From positions 1-27,109 of IMG/VR virus record IMGVR_UViG_3300049846_002136: a stretch of 27,109 nucleotides of DNA. One strand, 5' to 3'. The notes beneath the pieces are model-generated. The model was given only the letters and a program-made list of their open reading frames with translations, ran no database searches and was not told the origin of the DNA. Both the position numbers and the translations under genes were made by a program. Shown one piece after another: positions 10,853 to 26,681 of the stretch (position 1 is its first letter; the number at the start of each line of letters is the position of its first letter). The stretch is from a virus.

Positions 10853-12558
10853 TTAAGTTTACTAAAATTTTTTGGAAGAATTTATTAAGTACAGGCAACC
10901 GGGGAATTGAAATCCAGTTAGATAGGACTAATACCACAATTTTGTTTGGTGCATCTGGTTCCGGTAAATCAACATTATTGGATGCAATAACGTTTTGTTT
11001 ATTTAATAAACCATTTAGGAATATCAATAAGCCAAAATTAGTAAATGCTATTAATGAATCTGATTGTTTAGTTATAGTTGAATTTGAGGTAAACAATAAA
11101 TCATATAGAATCGTTAGGGGCATTAAGCCAAATATATTTCAGATTTTTGAAAATAATACACTATTAAACCAAGATTCCTCGAATCGTGATTATCAGTTAA
11201 TATTAGAACAACAAATTCTTAAAATTAACTATAGGACATTTTTACAAGTGGTGATGCTTGGTGCTGCAAATTTCACACCATTCATGCAATTGAAGCCTTC
11301 GGATAGGAGGGCCATTATAGAGGATTTATTGGATATTCAAATATTTTCTACAATGAATAATCTACTAAAAGAAAAATCAAGTATATGTAAACAATCTATG
11401 CATGATTTGGAGATAAAATTATTATCTGTAGATCAAAAAATGCAAATGGTAAAGAATCATATACATTCTTTGGAAAATATCAGAGATATGAGAATTGATG
11501 AGGTTCAGACTAATATTGAATCTGATAGTCAAATATTAAAATCCTTATATGATGATTTGAGGGGATTGGAACAGAAAAAATCAGAAATGATAACCAAAAA
11601 TTTAGCATCATTGGAATCTAGTATATTAAAATTCAACAATCTAAAGGGTTCTTTGGAGTCAGATAGAACACGCATTATGAATGATATCCATTTTATTCAA
11701 AGTAATTCAAATTGCCCAACATGTAAACAAGAAATTAATGATAATATTAGAAACGCTGAAATATTAAAAAAGACTGAAATATTAGAAGAAATAGATAAAG
11801 GAATTGATGTTGCGGTTGAGACTATAAAAAAATATGCAAAACTCAAATCAGAAACGATAGAAGTTAAAGAGCAAGTAAATGTTATTGACTTGCATATTAA
11901 GGAATTAATGACTTCAATAAAGTTTTATGAAAATTCAATAACAAACAGACAGGATGAATTGTTAAAATTGAAATCGGCTGATATTGAGATGCAAAATTAT
12001 AGAAATGAATTGAATGGATATATTGAAGAAATTTCAAAGTTTCAAGAACAGAAAGTAAAATTGTCCAAAGAACAACAGGTGATAGAATATTCTTCATTAA
12101 TATTAAAAGATTCTGGTGTAAAATCTAAAATATTACAAGAATATATACCTTATATCAACCAATACGTTAATGTGTTTTTAAATTCCATGTCCTTTTTTGT
12201 CTCATTTAAATTGGATGAAAACTTTGAAGAACAAATAAAATCCAAAGGCCGAGACTTTTTTAATTACGAGAATTTTTCAGAAGGCGAACGACAGAGATTA
12301 GATTTGGCATTATTATTCACTTGGAGGTGTATAGCAAAAGCAAAAAATTCAGTAAATACCAATTTATTGATTATGGATGAAGTTCTTGATTCATATCTGG
12401 ATACTTCAGCAACAGAAAATGTATTATCCATATTTAAAGAAGATTTGTTTAATGATACCAATATCATTGTTATAAGCCACAAAGAAAATATCATTGACAA
12501 ATTTGATAGAGTGATCAAATATACTATAGAGAAGGGATTTAGCCATGCGGAGTTATAG
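10849..12558 (+). CDS. 46: Recombination nuclease ATPase subunit gp46 (Rad50-like)
   Basis: The 569-residue protein is an SMC-like ATPase partner of gp47. The Walker A motif GASGSGKST is at residues 34-42, the zinc hook CPTC at 289-292 lies between two coiled-coil arms (about 170-285 and 295-410), the ABC signature FSEGERQR begins at 476, and Walker B LLIMDE is at 506-511, followed by a D-loop and a VISH switch. All elements for ATP-driven tethering and resection are intact. The start overlaps the gp47 stop by four bases. The length is close to T4 gp46 (560 residues). Confidence 0.96.
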   Translation: MIKFTKIFWKNLLSTGNRGIEIQLDRTNTTILFGASGSGKSTLLDAITFCLFNKPFRNINKPKLVNAINESDCLVIVEFEVNNKSYRIVRGIKPNIFQIFENNTLLNQDSSNRDYQLILEQQILKINYRTFLQVVMLGAANFTPFMQLKPSDRRAIIEDLLDIQIFSTMNNLLKEKSSICKQSMHDLEIKLLSVDQKMQMVKNHIHSLENIRDMRIDEVQTNIESDSQILKSLYDDLRGLEQKKSEMITKNLASLESSILKFNNLKGSLESDRTRIMNDIHFIQSNSNCPTCKQEINDNIRNAEILKKTEILEEIDKGIDVAVETIKKYAKLKSETIEVKEQVNVIDLHIKELMTSIKFYENSITNRQDELLKLKSADIEMQNYRNELNGYIEEISKFQEQKVKLSKEQQVIEYSSLILKDSGVKSKILQEYIPYINQYVNVFLNSMSFFVSFKLDENFEEQIKSKGRDFFNYENFSEGERQRLDLALLFTWRCIAKAKNSVNTNLLIMDEVLDSYLDTSATENVLSIFKEDLFNDTNIIVISHKENIIDKFDRVIKYTIEKGFSHAEL

Positions 12559-12559
12559 A

Positions 12560-13285
12560 ATGAAACAAAAAACAGATAATTCTACTTCAAATACAAAAGC
12601 AGATCATAATAATGATATTAGTGATTATTCTGGAGATGAAGTTGAAAAGAAACTTCAAAAGGGTATTTTAGTTAATGATTTTACTGAAAGTTCTGTTAAA
12701 TCCTTTAAAGATGATTTTGATGAGTTTAATTTTTCAAAAGCATATCCTTATATACCAATTTATATTGATTCCTTTGGTGGGGAAATATATTCTCTATTGG
12801 CGATGTTAGATATTATAGAATCTGCACAAAAGCCTGTTGTAACAATTGCAATCGGAAAGGCAATGTCATGTGGTGCATGTTTATTAGTCCTAGGTGGAAC
12901 AATTGGTTATAGATTTGCGACAAAGCATTCTACAATTATGCACCATACTGGTTCTGGAGTTTCATGGGGGAAATTACATGAACTTAAATCATATGCTGCT
13001 GAATTGGAGAGATTAGAACTACTAATTCTTAGTATGATGGATGAAAAATGTAATAAACCGTCGGGCTTTTTTGCCAACTATGCTAGAGATAAGGATCAAG
13101 CAGATATTTATTTTACAGCAAACGAGGCAAAAGAATTGGGGTTAATTGATATGGTGGGATATCCTTTGTTCATACCAAAAACCGAAATAGAAATGATGAT
13201 ACCACAAAACACCATGAATATTAAAAAACAAAAAGAAACAATAGCAATAAAACCAAAAAGAAAACCCACAAAACCAAAAAAGTAA
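12560..13285 (+). CDS. ClpP-like serine protease (S14 family)
   Basis: The 241-residue protein has a ClpP fold: YIDSFGGEIYSLLAMLDII (substrate strand and helix), GKAMSCGACLLVLGG with the nucleophile Ser103, the active-site His129 in IMHHTGSG, and Asp182 in QADIYFTANEAKELGLID. The triad is complete. The N-terminus is long, polar and probably disordered; the C-terminus is a Lys/Pro-rich tail. The ATG at 12560 with GGAG seven bases upstream is preferred over an in-frame ATG at 12545 inside gp46. No Clp ATPase is seen in the window. It could work with a host ClpX/ClpA or act alone. Phage ClpP-like enzymes serve as prohead proteases in other phage groups, but this one sits among recombination genes without a late promoter. 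Confidence 0.8.
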   Translation: MKQKTDNSTSNTKADHNNDISDYSGDEVEKKLQKGILVNDFTESSVKSFKDDFDEFNFSKAYPYIPIYIDSFGGEIYSLLAMLDIIESAQKPVVTIAIGKAMSCGACLLVLGGTIGYRFATKHSTIMHHTGSGVSWGKLHELKSYAAELERLELLILSMMDEKCNKPSGFFANYARDKDQADIYFTANEAKELGLIDMVGYPLFIPKTEIEMMIPQNTMNIKKQKETIAIKPKRKPTKPKK

Positions 13286-18340: not shown

Positions 18341-18874
18341 ATGTCAAAAATGAAAATCTCCGAAAATGGTATAAATTTAATCAAAAAATTCGAATCTCTT
18401 AGATTACATGCATATCTAGATTTGGGTGATAGTGGGATTGCAACTATTGGATATGGTACAACTTTTATCGATGGTCGCCCTGTGGTTATGGGAATGGTAA
18501 TTACGGAGCTTCAGGCGAACGAATATTTAATGAAAGATATTTTAAAATTTGAAAATTCAGTAAATAAATTGATAAGTGTTGAAATTTCTCAAAAAATGTT
18601 TGACGCATTAGTATCGTTTGTGTATAATGTGGGTACTAGTAATTTTGAAAAATCAACTTTGTTGAAATGTATAAACAAAGGTCAATTTGATTTAGCATCT
18701 GCCGAGTTTGAAAAGTGGAATAAATCTCAAGGGAAAATCCTAAAGGGACTCATTAGAAGAAGAACTGAAGAGGCTAAATTATTTTCTGAAGGAATTTCGG
18801 AAATAAAAAATATTGAAGAAGTATCTCTTGATTTTGAAGAAATTGAAAAGTTGTCTAAAAACGAAAAGGAATAA
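18341..18874 (+). CDS. Lysozyme (glycoside hydrolase 24 type)
   Basis: The 177-residue protein is a T4/P22-type muramidase that cleaves peptidoglycan. The catalytic region reads KFESLRLHAYLD then IATIGYGTT, with the general acid Glu18 and Asp27 and Thr35 as likely partners. Further family signs are FDALVSFVYNVG near residue 88 and a C-terminal GLIRRRTEEAKLF. No signal peptide or transmembrane anchor is visible, so a holin elsewhere should release it. It starts directly at the dUTPase stop, inside the replication operon and without a late promoter of its own. The last 30 residues are acidic and not part of the fold. Confidence 0.9.
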   Translation: MSKMKISENGINLIKKFESLRLHAYLDLGDSGIATIGYGTTFIDGRPVVMGMVITELQANEYLMKDILKFENSVNKLISVEISQKMFDALVSFVYNVGTSNFEKSTLLKCINKGQFDLASAEFEKWNKSQGKILKGLIRRRTEEAKLFSEGISEIKNIEEVSLDFEEIEKLSKNEKE

Positions 18875-19252: not shown

Positions 19253-20719
19253 ATGTCACAATTTTATACTCATTTTACCACTAAAGGCAATAACATCTTA
19301 TATATCGGAAGGGAGAATGGAAGAAAATTTATAAGAAAGGTTCCATATAAGCCAAGTCTATTCATAGAATCAAAATCACCAACAAAATATATAAGTCATG
19401 ATCAAACTAAATGGTTAAGTAGAATTAAGTTTGATTCAATATCAGATGCCAGGGAGTATATAAAATTATACGATGGTATTGATGGTCATGAAATATATGG
19501 CATGAGGAATTTTGAATATGCATTCATCTCAGATCAATATCCAAATGATATTGATTATGATTTATCTTTTGTTAAGATTTTATATTTTGATATTGAAACC
19601 AAGTGCGAATCTGGGTTTCCCAGCATGGAAACATTTGATCAACCTGTAATTGCAATTACTTGCCAAGTTGGCTCAAAATATACAGTATTCGGTCTAGGTG
19701 ATTTTACTAATAACTCATCCGACAATATTACATATATTAAATGTGGTTCTGAATCGGAACTTTTAATAAAATTTGTGGACTATATTAAAGTTGAATCGCC
19801 TGATATTTTATCTGGCTATAATATTGCATTTTTTGATATACCATATTTAATTGGTAGAATGGATCGAGTTATTGAACGTGATTATGCAAAGCGAATATCT
19901 CCTTGGCATGATATGCGAAGTAGGGTTATGACCATAAACCAAAAGACATATACAGTATATGATTTTTTAGGTTTGGTGACATTAGATTATATGGAAGTTT
20001 ATAAAAAGTTTTCCTCAGGTAGACCGGAAAATTATAAATTAGATACCCTAGCCAAAGAAGAATTGGGTGAATCCAAAGTTCAATTTGATGGAAATTTGAG
20101 AACACTATACACAACCGATTGGCAAAAATTTATAGAATATAACATCCATGACGTTAGAATTGTTTCAAGATTAGAGGAAAAATTAAAATTGATAGAAATG
20201 ATTCTAACTATTGCTTTTGATGCAAAGGTTAATTTTATGGATGTATTTAAGCAAGTTAGATTGTGGGATATTATTATTTTCAATCACCTAAAGAAAATCA
20301 AAGGAGTCATTCCTCCTAAATCTGAATCAGATAAGGATGTTCAATATGCGGGTGCTGCTGTTAAAGATCCTATAGTAGGAAAACATAATTGGTTGGTTTC
20401 CTTTGATGTAAATTCTCTATATCCAATGTTGATAGTTCAATATAATATTTCTCCTGAAAAATTAATAAAATCTAAAAGGATTGATTTAAACGTAGATGAG
20501 CTATTGAGTAATAGTCTTGAGTTGGAATATTTAAAAAACGATAATTTAAGTTTATGTGCTAATGGTCATTTTTTTAATAGAGATTCCCAAGGATTTTTGC
20601 CAAATATAATGGAAAGAATGTACGAGGATAGAAAAAAATATAAGAATGAAATGTCAAAATATAAATCTGAATTGGAACAAGTGAAAAAAGAATTAAAATC
20701 TAGAGGTATTGACATTTAA
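19253..20719 (+). CDS. 43A: DNA polymerase gp43, N-terminal part (43A)
   Basis: The 488-residue protein is the front part of a family B replicative polymerase. The exonuclease motifs are Exo I DIE (113-115), Exo II YNIAFFD (189-195) and Exo III YNIHD (296-300). Polymerase motif A, FDVNSLYP, is at 384-391 with the metal-binding Asp385. It ends after the first fingers helix, MYEDRKKYKNEMSKYKSEL and beyond, with a stop after GIDI. The rest of the enzyme is encoded at 21563. The ATG at 19253 has no ribosome site. The final codons overlap a sigma70-type -35 box for the inserted genes. No intein sequence is present at the break. Confidence 0.94.
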   Translation: MSQFYTHFTTKGNNILYIGRENGRKFIRKVPYKPSLFIESKSPTKYISHDQTKWLSRIKFDSISDAREYIKLYDGIDGHEIYGMRNFEYAFISDQYPNDIDYDLSFVKILYFDIETKCESGFPSMETFDQPVIAITCQVGSKYTVFGLGDFTNNSSDNITYIKCGSESELLIKFVDYIKVESPDILSGYNIAFFDIPYLIGRMDRVIERDYAKRISPWHDMRSRVMTINQKTYTVYDFLGLVTLDYMEVYKKFSSGRPENYKLDTLAKEELGESKVQFDGNLRTLYTTDWQKFIEYNIHDVRIVSRLEEKLKLIEMILTIAFDAKVNFMDVFKQVRLWDIIIFNHLKKIKGVIPPKSESDKDVQYAGAAVKDPIVGKHNWLVSFDVNSLYPMLIVQYNISPEKLIKSKRIDLNVDELLSNSLELEYLKNDNLSLCANGHFFNRDSQGFLPNIMERMYEDRKKYKNEMSKYKSELEQVKKELKSRGIDI

Positions 20720-20737
20720 GTTCAATTGCACTATATT
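20709..20737 (+). promoter_or_regulatory. Sigma70-type promoter between the polymerase halves
   Basis: A perfect TTGACA (20709-20714), a 17-base spacer and TATATT (20732-20737). The -35 box is formed by the last codons of 43A. It should drive the two inserted genes, 43B and perhaps uvsX. Confidence 0.7.
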
Positions 20738-20765
20738 GATATTATGAATTTTTATGGAGTAAAAC

Positions 20766-21128
20766 ATGAATCGATTTATTAATGAATATACTACTGTAAC
20801 ATTAGATGAAATATTTTCTTTAGGAAAGGGCGATGCTACTATAAAATCTTTATTATTATCAAAATTTGTTAGTGATGAAAATTTGCATTCTTGGGGTGAT
20901 GATTTTTATTATGAAGTAAGTGGAATTTCTCCAGATAAGAATATTTTATTATATGTTTGTGGCACAATTGCTTTAATTAAGGTTCCAATTAAAAAACACA
21001 ACATTAAATCAAAAGCCCCCAAGGTAAACGATAAGCAAAAGCCAAAGTCAACTGCCCCCAAAAAGAAAGATACAAAGGGCAAACAAAATAGTAAAAATAC
21101 TAATAAGGGAAAGAGCAAAGGAAAATAA
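20766..21128 (+). CDS. Unknown small protein with basic tail, inserted in gene 43
   Basis: The 120-residue protein is not recognised. Residues 1-78 form a compact domain (TTVTLDEIFSLGKGD near the start, YYEVSGISPDKNILLYVCGT later), and the last 40 residues are an almost pure Lys/Ser/Asn/Pro tail, probably disordered and able to bind nucleic acid. Its N-terminal domain aligns with that of the next gene in hydrophobic pattern and at VTLxxxxxxG, SGI/SGV, and a final GxxxxxxxP. A GGAG site precedes the ATG. Nothing in it resembles a homing endonuclease. Being placed between the two halves of DNA polymerase, it might assist polymerase assembly, or simply be cargo of an insertion. Confidence 0.6.
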   Translation: MNRFINEYTTVTLDEIFSLGKGDATIKSLLLSKFVSDENLHSWGDDFYYEVSGISPDKNILLYVCGTIALIKVPIKKHNIKSKAPKVNDKQKPKSTAPKKKDTKGKQNSKNTNKGKSKGK

Positions 21129-21130
21129 TT

Positions 21131-21559
21131 ATGAAAAAATATGAAACTATCAATTCTTCGGTGTCCGTTACTTTAGAGCAATTGGTTATCTTTGGAATGA
21201 GTGAGAATCCTTATGCAGAGTTGTGTAAACATTTAATTGCAATATCATGTAAAGATGATGCCGGGTATTTTCATACCAATGAAACTGTTATTCGTATATC
21301 GGGTGTACAAAATGGCAATTTGGTGTTTGATGTAAATGGGCTACAAAAAGTTATTGAAGAACCCCCTTTACTTCCAGTTGAAGTTGAGTTAGAATCTAGA
21401 TGGAAGGGATTAAATTCTAAGGTGCCAACACAAATTTTTTCAAATGATGAATTGCTATCTGTTACAAAAAAGATCAGTCATAAGGATGACTTGAATCCTA
21501 AGAGAAGGGGAATTTTAACGCAAATTTTAGGATTAATCAACCCGTTTAGATCTAAGTAA
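21131..21559 (+). CDS. Unknown small protein, probable paralogue of its upstream neighbour
   Basis: The 142-residue protein starts two bases after the previous stop and ends three bases before 43B, so the three are one translational unit. The domain at residues 8-75 (SVTLEQLVIFGMSENPY, then ETVIRISGVQNGNLVFDVNG) follows the same pattern as the 20766 product. The C-terminus differs: it is amphipathic, with PKRRGILTQILGLINPFRSK at the end, which might bind a membrane surface or a protein. No family is recognised and no catalytic motif is visible. Confidence 0.6.
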   Translation: MKKYETINSSVSVTLEQLVIFGMSENPYAELCKHLIAISCKDDAGYFHTNETVIRISGVQNGNLVFDVNGLQKVIEEPPLLPVEVELESRWKGLNSKVPTQIFSNDELLSVTKKISHKDDLNPKRRGILTQILGLINPFRSK

Positions 21560-21562
21560 AAT

Positions 21563-22657
21563 ATGGAAAATTACTCAAAATTGAGCACAGATGCACTTTT
21601 AGAAAAAAAGAAAAATCTAGAAAGATTGGTATCTAAGTATTCAAATATGCAAAATGGAAAAAAGGTACAATTAAATTCTGCATATGGGGCCTTAGGTAAT
21701 GCTTATTTTAGATATTTTGATGTGCGATTGGCTGAGGCTGTGACCCTATCAGGTCAATTAGCGATTAAATGGGTTCAACGTGATTTAAATCTATATCTCA
21801 ATAAATTATTAAATGCATCTGATAAAGATTTTATAGTCGCCTCCGATACAGATTCAGCATATATCACTTTAAATGAAGTTGTAAATAAAACTTTTGATAA
21901 TCAAATAATAGATCAAGAAAAAATAGTAGAGTTTATTGATGTGTTTTGTGTTGAGGGGCTACAAAAAGTAATAAACAATTCATTTAACTCTTTATATGAA
22001 TATACTAATGGGTTTTTGCCTAGATTAGAAATGAAACGTGAATGCATTGCAAATACTGGAATATGGATAGCAAAGAAAAGATATGTAATAAGTGCATTAG
22101 ATGTTGAGGGTATTAGGTATAGTGCTCCAGTAATTAAGGCCACTGGTCTTGATGTTGTAAAAAGTTCAACTCCTGCTTTCATTAAAATATATCTGAATGA
22201 GGCATTAAAAATACTTTTGCAGGGCAAGGAATCTGATTTACAAAAGCATATGAAAGCGGTTAAGAATATTTTCTTTGATGCCGATATAGATAATATTTCT
22301 TTTCCCAAGTCCGTATCTGGGGTTAAAAAATATTCAAATAGACAAACAATATATACTAAAAGCACCCCAATAAACTCTAGGGCTGCTATACTTTATAATT
22401 ACCTTATCACCAAACATGGCTTGCAATCTAAATATGAACCCATAACCGAAGGCGAAAAAATAAAATATGTTTATCTAAAAGAACCAAATCCAATAGGAGA
22501 AAATGTTATTGGTTATATTGATAAATTGCCAGATGAATTTGGGTTATTAAAATATGTTGATTATGATTTGCAATTTAATAAAATATTCAAAAAACCCATA
22601 GAGGATATAGCAACTATTATTGGTTGGTCACTGGAGAAAAAAAGTACATTGTTTTAG
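21563..22657 (+). CDS. 43B: DNA polymerase gp43, C-terminal part (43B)
   Basis: The 364-residue protein holds the rest of the family B polymerase. It begins with a short helical stretch that belongs to the fingers, followed by motif B, KVQLNSAYG (34-42), motif C, SDTDS (94-98), the KKRY motif in the palm/thumb border, and the thumb up to a C-terminal EKKSTLF that resembles the clamp-binding end of T4 gp43. The catalytic Asp residues of motif C are therefore on a different chain from motif A. The two parts together have 852 residues, near the usual length, so little was lost at the break. There is no ribosome site of note; translation is probably coupled to the preceding gene. Confidence 0.94.
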   Translation: MENYSKLSTDALLEKKKNLERLVSKYSNMQNGKKVQLNSAYGALGNAYFRYFDVRLAEAVTLSGQLAIKWVQRDLNLYLNKLLNASDKDFIVASDTDSAYITLNEVVNKTFDNQIIDQEKIVEFIDVFCVEGLQKVINNSFNSLYEYTNGFLPRLEMKRECIANTGIWIAKKRYVISALDVEGIRYSAPVIKATGLDVVKSSTPAFIKIYLNEALKILLQGKESDLQKHMKAVKNIFFDADIDNISFPKSVSGVKKYSNRQTIYTKSTPINSRAAILYNYLITKHGLQSKYEPITEGEKIKYVYLKEPNPIGENVIGYIDKLPDEFGLLKYVDYDLQFNKIFKKPIEDIATIIGWSLEKKSTLF

Positions 22658-23761: not shown

Positions 23762-24034
23762 GTGGAGAATAAAAAGTACCAAATATTAGACCATAATGGA
23801 AGTGGTATAAAAGTATTCATATTGTCAGGAGAATGGCAAGGTGTTACTATATTATTTGATAACTTCAATAAAAATGGTGATAAGGGAACATATACATATG
23901 AATTTTTTGGTTTACCCTCTAATAAACTACATTTATTAAATTCTTACTTGAATGAAGAACAAGAATCATCTATACTATTTACTATAAGAGAAATTGCATC
24001 CGGTTTATTTCAAATATTAGCATCACATGAATGA
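23762..24034 (+). CDS. Small hypothetical protein between uvsX and gp41
   Basis: The 90-residue product starts with GTG at 23762, eight bases after GGA. The N-terminal half is beta-like (YQILDHNGSGIKVFILSGEW), the C-terminal half mainly helical. It overlaps the start of the helicase gene by eight bases, so the two are translationally coupled. No family is recognised. Its position suggests a replication-related accessory function, but nothing in the sequence proves one. Confidence 0.6.
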   Translation: MENKKYQILDHNGSGIKVFILSGEWQGVTILFDNFNKNGDKGTYTYEFFGLPSNKLHLLNSYLNEEQESSILFTIREIASGLFQILASHE

Positions 24035-24668
24035 TAGAATTGAGATTTTAATACTAAAGGGGCTTATACATGATGAAGAGTATTGTAGAAAGGTTTTGCC
24101 TTTTATAAAAGAAGAATATTTTGATAATTTTTCATATCTGTGTATTTTTAAGTTAGTATCAAATTTTATTAATAAACACAATGCACTCCCCACAATAGAG
24201 GCGATATCTATTATGGCTTCTGAGGAGGCCCTGAATAGTGAACAATATAAGACTATACAAGAATTGATTATTACATTATCCGTTTATGATAAGCAATCAT
24301 TAGATTGGTTTGTCGATCAAACTGAAAAGTTCTGTAAAGATAGATCAATCATAAATGCATTCAAAACTGGTATTAGTATTATTGATGGCAAAGATAAGAC
24401 AAGAAATATCAGTATACTTCCAGATTTAATGAAAGATGCCTTATCCGTATCATTTGATACTTCTGTTGGACACTCTTATGTTGATGATGCTGAGTCTAGA
24501 TTTGATTTTTATCATTCTAAAGTTGAGCAATTGCCATTCGACATTGAAATTTTGAATAAGATTACAAATGGTGGTGTTCCAAAGAAATCACTCAATTTGG
24601 TTATGGCCGGTTGTGTACATCCTGATACTAAAGTTAAGATTAGGATTAGGAGATGTAATGCCAATTAG
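24027..24668 (+). CDS. 41: Replicative helicase gp41, N-terminal part fused to a short N-intein
   Basis: The 213-residue protein consists of 195 residues of gp41 and an 18-residue intein start. The extein part has the DnaB-like N-terminal helices and the linker up to SLNLVMAG, which is the first strand and beginning of the Walker A motif. The next residue is Cys196, followed by VHPDTKV, a normal intein block A with the C-x-x-x-x-T spacing. The intein part then stops after RRCNAN. The last 23 bases overlap the 3' end of the HNH gene on the other strand, so the final residues are probably not original intein sequence. On its own this protein lacks a complete P-loop and cannot be an active helicase; it must be spliced to the product at 25494. 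Confidence 0.9.
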   Translation: MNDRIEILILKGLIHDEEYCRKVLPFIKEEYFDNFSYLCIFKLVSNFINKHNALPTIEAISIMASEEALNSEQYKTIQELIITLSVYDKQSLDWFVDQTEKFCKDRSIINAFKTGISIIDGKDKTRNISILPDLMKDALSVSFDTSVGHSYVDDAESRFDFYHSKVEQLPFDIEILNKITNGGVPKKSLNLVMAGCVHPDTKVKIRIRRCNAN

Positions 24669-25440
24669 ATTTTTTTGATTTACATCTATATATAACTGCT
24701 CCGGGTGTTATTAAGTTTTTTTCTGCCGCCTCATGTATTGAATTATAAGTAATTATGCCATCGGATACCATTTTCCTTCTAGGAGATGGTTTTCCTTTTT
24801 TGCCCAGGTGTGGTTTTATTGGTGAACCCAGAACATATCCTTCTTTTTTATATTTTTCAACGTCTTCTATTTTTGCTCTAATGAAAGTATTTGAACCTGG
24901 TATATGCATACATTTTTTTCCTTTATGGGCCTTTCCTCCCATACTACCTCTAATTAATCTTCCTTCCTTTGTTGTCCAAAAATGCCAAGGATTATTTTTA
25001 GATTTTATAGAGGCCTTTCCACCAATTGATGCATACATCTTTGTATTTTTTGGATTAAATATCCCAACTTTAGTTTCCATTTGAGTTTTAATGCCCTTTA
25101 ATTTCCATAATTTTTTTGTTTCAGTATCAACACCATGCATTCCTATTTTATTATCAAAACAAAATTTTCCAATCTTTTTTCTATACTCTCTGGATAATTT
25201 CCCTCCTAACATTTTCATTGCTCTAAGATCATTTACGTTATTATGTATTTTCCATAATAAAAAGTGTGCTAATATGTGTTCTTTTATGGTTAAATATGCA
25301 ATGTTGTCTTCTTCATTTGTTCCATTCATATGTTTTGGTATGATGTGATGATTATGATATATTTCTCCAATAATACTAAAATTTCGTTGACTACCCATCT
25401 CACATATAGTATGATAAACTTTAGAATATATTTGTTTCAT
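24646..25440 (-). CDS. HNH homing-type endonuclease, antisense within the split helicase
   Basis: The 264-residue protein has an HNH nuclease core: His31-His32 in HHIIPKHMNG, Asn46 in DNIAYL, and His55 and His59 in EHILAH. The middle contains Gly-Gly-Lys repeats with aromatic residues (GGKASIKSKNNPWHFW, then GGKAHKGKK), as in NUMOD-type DNA-binding modules of homing enzymes. The C-terminus, DGIITYNSIHEAAEKNLITP followed by YRCKSKKSNWHYI, is an IENR1/NUMOD1-like DNA-binding domain. It lies between the two halves of the split intein but in the opposite direction, so it is free-standing and not a domain of the intein. It converges with gp41N and diverges from gp41C. A perfect late promoter reads into it. 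A frame-intact gene suggests it is still active. Confidence 0.9.
   Translation of the reverse strand: MKQIYSKVYHTICEMGSQRNFSIIGEIYHNHHIIPKHMNGTNEEDNIAYLTIKEHILAHFLLWKIHNNVNDLRAMKMLGGKLSREYRKKIGKFCFDNKIGMHGVDTETKKLWKLKGIKTQMETKVGIFNPKNTKMYASIGGKASIKSKNNPWHFWTTKEGRLIRGSMGGKAHKGKKCMHIPGSNTFIRAKIEDVEKYKKEGYVLGSPIKPHLGKKGKPSPRRKMVSDGIITYNSIHEAAEKNLITPGAVIYRCKSKKSNWHYIS
25387..25415 (+). promoter_or_regulatory. Sigma70-type promoter for gp41C, inside the HNH gene
   Basis: TTGACT (25387-25392), a 17-base spacer and TATGAT (25410-25415), the same hexamers and spacing as at uvsY. It lies within the first 18 codons of the HNH gene, on the other strand, and would start RNA near 25422, about 72 bases before gp41C. 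Confidence 0.65.
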
Positions 25441-25477
25441 ATTTATTACCGGTCCCTGCCAATATAACGTTAATTTT

Positions 25478-25485
25478 TATTTATA
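25478..25485 (-). promoter_or_regulatory. T4-type late promoter for the HNH gene
   Basis: TATTTATA on the + strand reads TATAAATA on the - strand, 38 bases before the HNH start codon at 25440. It is the only late promoter found on the - strand. Confidence 0.75.
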
Positions 25486-25493
25486 GTTTTTTT

Positions 25494-26681
25494 ATGCTTA
25501 ATGAGAGCTGGATAGAAAAAGAAGTAGCATTTAAAGAAATTGATAGTTTATTACAAGCCGGATATGAAGTTGAAATTGATTCACCTGATGGGTTTGTTGG
25601 TGTGAATTGCTTTGTCGATAAAGGTGAGTGGGTTGAATATAAATTGACACTCTCCGATCATAGAGAAGTCTCGGTTAATGAGAACCACTTATTTGAAACG
25701 ATAAATGGTTGGGAATTTGCTAAAGACTTATGTGATGGGGAACATACATTCTTAACAAACACCGGTTATGTGGTTGGTAAAGTTAATAAAAGTGGAAATA
25801 TAATACCTATAGTTGATATTAATGTTAATCATAAAAATCATAGATATTACGCCAATGGAATCTCATCCCACAATACTGCTGTAGGTAAATCTACATTTTT
25901 ATCTCATTTGGCTTGTTCATATTTTATGCAAGGTTATAATGTATTCTATGGTACATTTGAAATGTCAAGGGAAAGAACGGCAGCCAGATTTGATGCCAAT
26001 TTGTTAAATATACCAATAAATGATCTTAATGATTTACCTAAGTCGTCATTTGACAACGCCATGAAAAAAATTATGCTAAAGACTCCAGGTAAACTTATTG
26101 TAGAAGAATATCCAACATCTTCGGTTAATATGCTTCATGTTGCACACACTTTAGATGAATTGCAATTAAAGAGAAATTTTATCCCTGATGTAATTATATT
26201 GGATTATCTTAATATAATATTAAGTCACCGCATAAAAGTATCAAATAGTGGTACATATGCTTATATTAAATATGTTGCAGAAGAAATGAGAGCCATGGCA
26301 GTATTAAGAAATGTTCCAATATGGACTGCCACGCAATTAAATAGAGAAGGATTTAGATCATCTGATGTTGGTTTAGAAAATACATCAGAAAGTTTTGGTA
26401 TACCAGTGACGGCTGATTTAATGGTTGCATTGATTTCTACAGAAGAATTAGAAGCACAAAATCAAATTTTACTAAAACAATTAAAAAATAGGTATAATGA
26501 TTCGGCTAAAGATAGAAGGATAATATTAGGAATAGATAGGCCTAGAATGAGATTTTATGAAGTTTCGGAAGCCGCACAAAATCAAATTAATCAAGATGTA
26601 AGTGATTTGATGAAGAGTGAAAATAGCAATAATATGATTCCTATGAGTTCAAATAAATTCTCTGATTTTAACTTTTCTTAA
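25494..26681 (+). CDS. 41: C-intein fused to C-terminal part of helicase gp41
   Basis: Residues 1-127 are an unusually long C-intein: block B VNENHLF with His65, block F IVDINVNHKNHRYYANG with Asp108 and His116, and block G ISSHN ending in His126-Asn127. The +1 residue is Thr128. The extein then runs TAVGKSTFLSHLA, completing the Walker A motif begun by gp41N. The rest is the RecA-like helicase core with Walker B VIILDYLNI, WTATQLNREG and ESFGIPVTADLM, as in T4 gp41. Ligation would give a 463-residue helicase, near T4's 475. The ATG has no ribosome site; the promoter at 25387 probably serves it. Confidence 0.92.
   Translation: MLNESWIEKEVAFKEIDSLLQAGYEVEIDSPDGFVGVNCFVDKGEWVEYKLTLSDHREVSVNENHLFETINGWEFAKDLCDGEHTFLTNTGYVVGKVNKSGNIIPIVDINVNHKNHRYYANGISSHNTAVGKSTFLSHLACSYFMQGYNVFYGTFEMSRERTAARFDANLLNIPINDLNDLPKSSFDNAMKKIMLKTPGKLIVEEYPTSSVNMLHVAHTLDELQLKRNFIPDVIILDYLNIILSHRIKVSNSGTYAYIKYVAEEMRAMAVLRNVPIWTATQLNREGFRSSDVGLENTSESFGIPVTADLMVALISTEELEAQNQILLKQLKNRYNDSAKDRRIILGIDRPRMRFYEVSEAAQNQINQDVSDLMKSENSNNMIPMSSNKFSDFNFS

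Follow-up and report, generated by a model that had tools for sequence, protein, structure and literature searches.

A T4-type DNA polymerase gene split in the fingers, with two small genes between its halves

Organization of the split gene 43

The window, by which we mean the whole 27,109-bp virus record that was analyzed (the genome of that phage is incomplete in it), contains four genes that, according to ORF calls and their translations, lie head to tail on the + strand. The first, 43A (19253-20719, 488 aa), encodes the N-terminal half of gp43, with the 3′-5′ exonuclease, palm motif A, and the first fingers helix. The last, 43B (21563-22657, 364 aa), encodes the C-terminal half, with the second fingers helix, motifs B and C, the KKRY motif, and the thumb. 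Two small genes, i1 (20766-21128, 120 aa, with a lysine-rich C-terminal tail) and i2 (21131-21559, 142 aa), stand between the halves, as an initial annotation of this DNA had reported, and a promoter-like site (20709-20737, + strand) overlaps the last codons of 43A. The gp43 split in the window is confirmed, and the interpretation that the annotation placed on it is supported, with three corrections that are given where they arise.

Pfam searches matched 43A to DNA_pol_B_exo1 and, over model positions 18-147, to DNA_pol_B; the DNA_pol_B match continues over positions 148-412 in 43B. Coverage of phrog_262 runs from 6 to 497 in 43A and from 498 to 847 in 43B, indicating that almost nothing of the enzyme is missing. 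43A contains the sequences FDIET (residue 112), NIAFFDIP (190), YNIHD (296), SFDVNSLYP (383), and DRKKYK (459), while 43B contains KKVQLNSAYG (33), DTDS (95), and KKRY (171). We take these to be the exonuclease motifs, motif A, and the first fingers helix in 43A, and motifs B and C and KKRY in 43B. With an exonuclease domain and motifs A, B, and C all present, the protein belongs to T4-type gp43 (family B DNA polymerase), and it is a split gp43, since the halves are separate ORFs, with the break in the fingers and motifs A and B on either side of it. The Pfam matches, phrog_262 coverage, and motif positions bear out the view that the exonuclease and motif A are on one chain and motifs B and C on the other, with the active-site motifs divided over the two. 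The combined length of 43A and 43B, which had been called normal, is 852 residues, near the 825-837 found in 70 of 71 unsplit neighbors (the other has 770). All 71 unsplit rows have FF or FLF within their last four residues. This ending is missing from the split 43B, which terminates in STLF in the window (22645-22657) and in KSLF in L003 (9333-9344), a relative with the same break. The C-terminal end of gp43 binds the sliding clamp in T4-like phages, and the missing FF or FLF could be a sign of altered clamp contact.

Alignment to the RB69 polymerase located the break. 43A reaches RB69 residue 504 and 43B starts from residue 529, in agreement with a split in the fingers; the RB69 loop at about 504-529 is what we take to be the tip of the fingers hairpin. 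By the same alignment, 43A R460 corresponds to RB69 R482 and 43B K34 to RB69 K560, two residues that contact the incoming nucleotide. Thus, nucleotide-contact residues would come from two chains. In the unsplit enzymes, exactly 24 residues separate RxxYKxxM from IQMAK (71 of 71 rows). In the split enzymes, RxxYKxxM is followed by 21 residues in 43A, and IQMAK in 43B is preceded by 28 residues in the window and 27 in L003; these lengths (21+28 and 21+27) were counted by hand on the window and L003 sequences. The fingers hairpin is therefore longer by 24-25 residues (48-49 in all), and the added helix may help the two halves pair.

Relatives and the origin of the break

Whether relatives share the break had been proposed as a check. 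Our first scans examined 82 loci with a 43A match, comprising 80 of the 424 found and two from a scan with 43B. The polymerase was in one frame at 78 of these loci, split at two (L003 and L004), and cut off at two. Further scans revealed a split polymerase in three more contigs. All five relatives carry i1 and i2 at the corresponding place, although 43A is cut by the contig end in two of them. The same arrangement in five further contigs (two apparently from one phage) rules out a sequencing or assembly error, already considered unlikely in the initial annotation.

The five relatives form one cluster, with 96-100% DNA identity to L095 (99.99% for L003), and thus count as one lineage beside the window, making two lineages in all. 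Identity between the window and the relatives is 65% in both 43A and 43B, but 32% in i1 and 31% in i2, lower also than the 39-84% of other window genes matched in G001. Within the relatives' cluster, dN/dS is 0.04-0.09 for 43A, 0.007 for 43B, 0-0.03 for i1, and 0.056 for i2, with few changes underlying the values for i1 and i2. An intact gene 43 elsewhere had been named as the finding that would speak against the split. None turned up: the two halves are the sole PolB matches in the window, and likewise in the longest relative record (156,877 bp). Neither record is known to be complete, and this phage might therefore carry a second polymerase outside the window. In that relative record, gp41 is contiguous (its two gp41 matches abut) and the polymerase is split. 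Since gp41 is whole in the relative but split in the window, the two lineages have the polymerase split in common but not the break in gp41.

The gp41 helicase gene of the window (24027-26681) looks split by a split intein. Its N half (24027-24668) ends with an 18-residue intein part that has Cys first, its C half (25494-26681) starts with a 127-residue intein part ending in HN before Thr, and the extein halves abut at phrog_19 361/362. The 18 residues fit the N parts of 15-37 aa given for atypically split inteins (PMC13014065). A 264-aa ORF on the minus strand between the gp41 halves (24646-25440) has weak HNH and I-TevI DNA-binding matches, under curated cut-offs, and is probably a homing endonuclease; the + strand ORFs at 24646-25440 are likely shadows of it. 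Unusual among the replication genes is a Clp-protease-like gene (12545-13285; Pfam CLP_protease, E 9e-26) directly after gp46 (identified by PHROG).

We built a tree of 32 polymerases, with six split rows that include Aeromonas phage 31 and Acinetobacter Acj9 and ZZ1. The window clade (support 100/100) groups with unsplit cyanophage-like rows, apart from the splits of phage 31, Acj9, and ZZ1, in a tree where, by the tool's own warning, long branches meet (Straboviridae rows, namely Aer31_split and five more, versus Cygsa01/UTK0005; these rows were kept). An AU test rejected all six split rows as one clade (p-AU 2.5e-102), but did not reject the three Straboviridae split rows as one clade (p 0.069). 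These results support at least two origins at the same loop, and we do not claim three. As the window clade is not grouped with the Aeromonas and Acinetobacter split rows, the tree argues against common descent with the split gp43 of Straboviridae, and the split apparently arose separately in the window lineage. The genes between the halves had been described as an insertion. Genes do lie there, but with no close unsplit relative found, we infer the insertion itself.

Genes and signals between the halves

The small genes i1 and i2 of the window have no match beyond chance in Pfam, PHROGs, or NCBIfam, and their L003 counterparts have none beyond chance in Pfam or NCBIfam. A tblastn search of i1 and i2 against 50,697 phage records yielded nothing significant. 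In the scans made, both genes were located solely between 43A and 43B, with one copy each in G001, and a relative of i2 was encoded in none of 46 candidate stretches of genome contigs. The i2 model (mean pLDDT 63.5, with block means of 71-85 over residues 1-70) has a predicted β-α-α-β-β N-terminal domain, for which a fold search against PDB and BFVD returned nothing at E ≤ 0.001, while the i1 model is unreliable (mean pLDDT 43). Helices and strands are predicted in a similar order in i1 and i2, although the i1 model is poor. Paralogy of the two is unproven (profile comparison probability 4.5%, P 0.009). Within the relatives' cluster, i1 has 4-9 synonymous versus 0-1 replacement changes and i2 has 5 versus 1, which suggests, on small numbers, that both genes are constrained.

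The initial annotation had placed a promoter in the last codons of 43A. The sequence TTGACA-17-TATATT is indeed present at 20709-20737, and the corresponding site at the end of 43A reads TTGACG-17-TATGAT in L003 and the other relatives. Its role as a promoter is a suggestion that draws on the consensus and on conservation in one other lineage. Promoter-like sites are no commoner in the window than chance predicts (77 found versus 78.7 expected), and this site is one of two that match at 11 of 12 positions. A TTGACG-17-TATAAT sequence (11/12) lies inside the lysozyme gene (18600-18628), with a similar site in L003 at 4915; its offset in L003, worked out by hand, is about equal, and the recurrence is probably due to protein conservation. 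Because this lysozyme-gene site also recurs, conservation of the first hexamer at the end of 43A carries little weight, as that hexamer is part of the coding sequence. The second hexamer is located in noncoding DNA, and matches of its quality are seen at 1.2% of L003 positions. In both lineages, GGAG precedes i1. The 43B start follows the i2 stop by 3 nt (window) or 5 nt (L003), with no clear Shine-Dalgarno. We regard the site as a likely promoter for i1, i2, and 43B, with translation of 43B likely coupled to that of i2.

These observations bear on the possibility that the polymerase uses i1 and i2 as small subunits, which would clip or chaperone the two fingers helices or regulate the enzyme. 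Such a role would explain why the two genes stay between 43A and 43B, and it would fit their apparent constraint and the close spacing of 43B behind i2 in both lineages. However, i1 and i2 diverge faster than 43A and 43B, unlike core subunits; in Aeromonas and Acinetobacter phages, the gap of the split gene holds different genes or no gene at all; and neither a fold match for i2 nor a family match for either protein emerged. We therefore consider a working role unlikely. About as unlikely is a four-gene machine in which i1 and i2 are small subunits on the lengthened fingers helices that hold or regulate the halves. If that were true, an enzyme known as a single chain would have turned into an obligate complex whose new partners sit at the dNTP-binding fingers.

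Stops occur in all three frames across the gap, and so the halves are not rejoined by simple read-through or a single frameshift. Between 20400 and 22000, no Rfam family matched at E ≤ 1, and the gap gave no covariance match to a group I or group II intron. The gap contains no HNH or GIY-YIG gene, as i1 and i2 match nothing notable in Pfam, PHROGs, or NCBIfam, and thus does not resemble an interruption by a homing endonuclease of the seg43 or mobE type. When we read the ends by eye, there was neither an intein N part at the end of 43A nor a C part at the start of 43B. In 43A, 21 residues follow the first fingers helix motif; in 43B, 28 residues precede motif B and do not include the HN found where an intein ends. 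This agrees with the initial statement that gp43, in contrast to the intein-split gp41, lacks an intein. Together, Pfam, PHROG, NCBIfam, Rfam, and the reading of the ends provide no evidence for an intron, intein, or homing endonuclease in the gap.

It is thus highly improbable that the 0.84-kb gap is excised from RNA, as an intron or some other element, so that one intact polymerase is made. There are precedents in the group I intron within 43B of phage 25 and a putative one within gene 43 of phage JSE (PMC2993671 and the phage 25 record). Here, however, no Rfam family matches, 43A has its own stop and 43B its own start, and the fingers hairpin amounts to 21 residues in 43A plus 27-28 in 43B, against a total of 24 in unsplit enzymes. 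Most improbable of all is joining by protein trans-splicing, for which there are reported parallels in Aeromonas phages with a split intein in PolB (Aes123 PolB1, PMC11923092) and in phage MIJ3, with a split PolB and an intein (PMC6892783), and for which the split intein of gp41 is a parallel within the window, since neither end of the gap carries intein sequence.

A probable two-chain polymerase compared with known splits

The explanation that we favor, with a probability of roughly 0.8 and on sequence evidence, is a genuine two-chain T4-type PolB that assembles non-covalently, with i1, i2, and 43B expressed from their own promoter. We infer that the halves are translated separately and that the two proteins, 43A and 43B, come together as an active enzyme with no ligation step. 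Because the break falls at the fingers tip, at a distance from the catalytic aspartates, the folding units within each half would remain whole. The two fingers helices, which come from different chains, would form an antiparallel hairpin with extra length from both halves. The promoter beginning inside the end of 43A would drive i1, i2, and 43B, with the start of 43B probably coupled to the end of i2. Most likely, the small genes were brought in as cargo or took the place of an earlier mobile element at the break; they would now be maintained as constrained phage genes.

The split in this lineage shows that a replicative polymerase has also been broken at the tip of the fingers outside Straboviridae, apparently independently, and thus this point seems to be repeatedly tolerated. 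The hairpin lengthened in both halves provides a testable idea for how a split enzyme coheres without an intein. Moreover, the window, in which gp41 is split by a split intein and accompanied by a probable endonuclease, and the relative, in which gp41 is whole and the polymerase split, allow two kinds of break to be compared side by side.

Among open-licence PMC papers, we found none on the gp43 arrangement of the window lineage. Split gp43 genes are, as had been pointed out, known from Aeromonas phages, and are annotated in phages 25 and 31 as well as in the Acinetobacter phages Acj9 and ZZ1. They are discussed in a review, which states that the phage 25 halves co-purify and are polymerase-active (PMC2988022). 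Two other papers state that ZZ1 gene 43 is split (PMC4177764) and mention split polymerases in OM43 phages (PMC10580990). As in the window, the polymerase of phages 25 and 31 is a T4-type PolB broken in the fingers between motifs A and B, with the halves ordered on one strand. However, a homing endonuclease gene separates the halves in phage 25, where 43B also contains the intron, and the window gap has neither. In phage 31, the gap is 49 nt long and free of genes, and the split has a separate origin on the tree.

Acj9 and ZZ1 are broken in the same fingers loop but belong to another lineage. Each has six annotated ORFs between the halves, nearly all without an assigned function. Thus, the initial annotation was correct that the cargo in the window is different, as i1 and i2 have no significant similarity to the Acj9 and ZZ1 genes (best E 0.21), but carrying cargo is not in itself new. 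Dassa and colleagues reportedly described, in 2009, fractured genes with split inteins. These resemble the window in that a core replication gene is in two pieces with DNA between them, and gp41 looks alike; gp43 differs in having no intein parts and no endonuclease in its gap. What sets the split gp43 of this lineage apart from the known splits is its separate origin, its other cargo, and a fingers hairpin extended from 24 to 48-49 residues.
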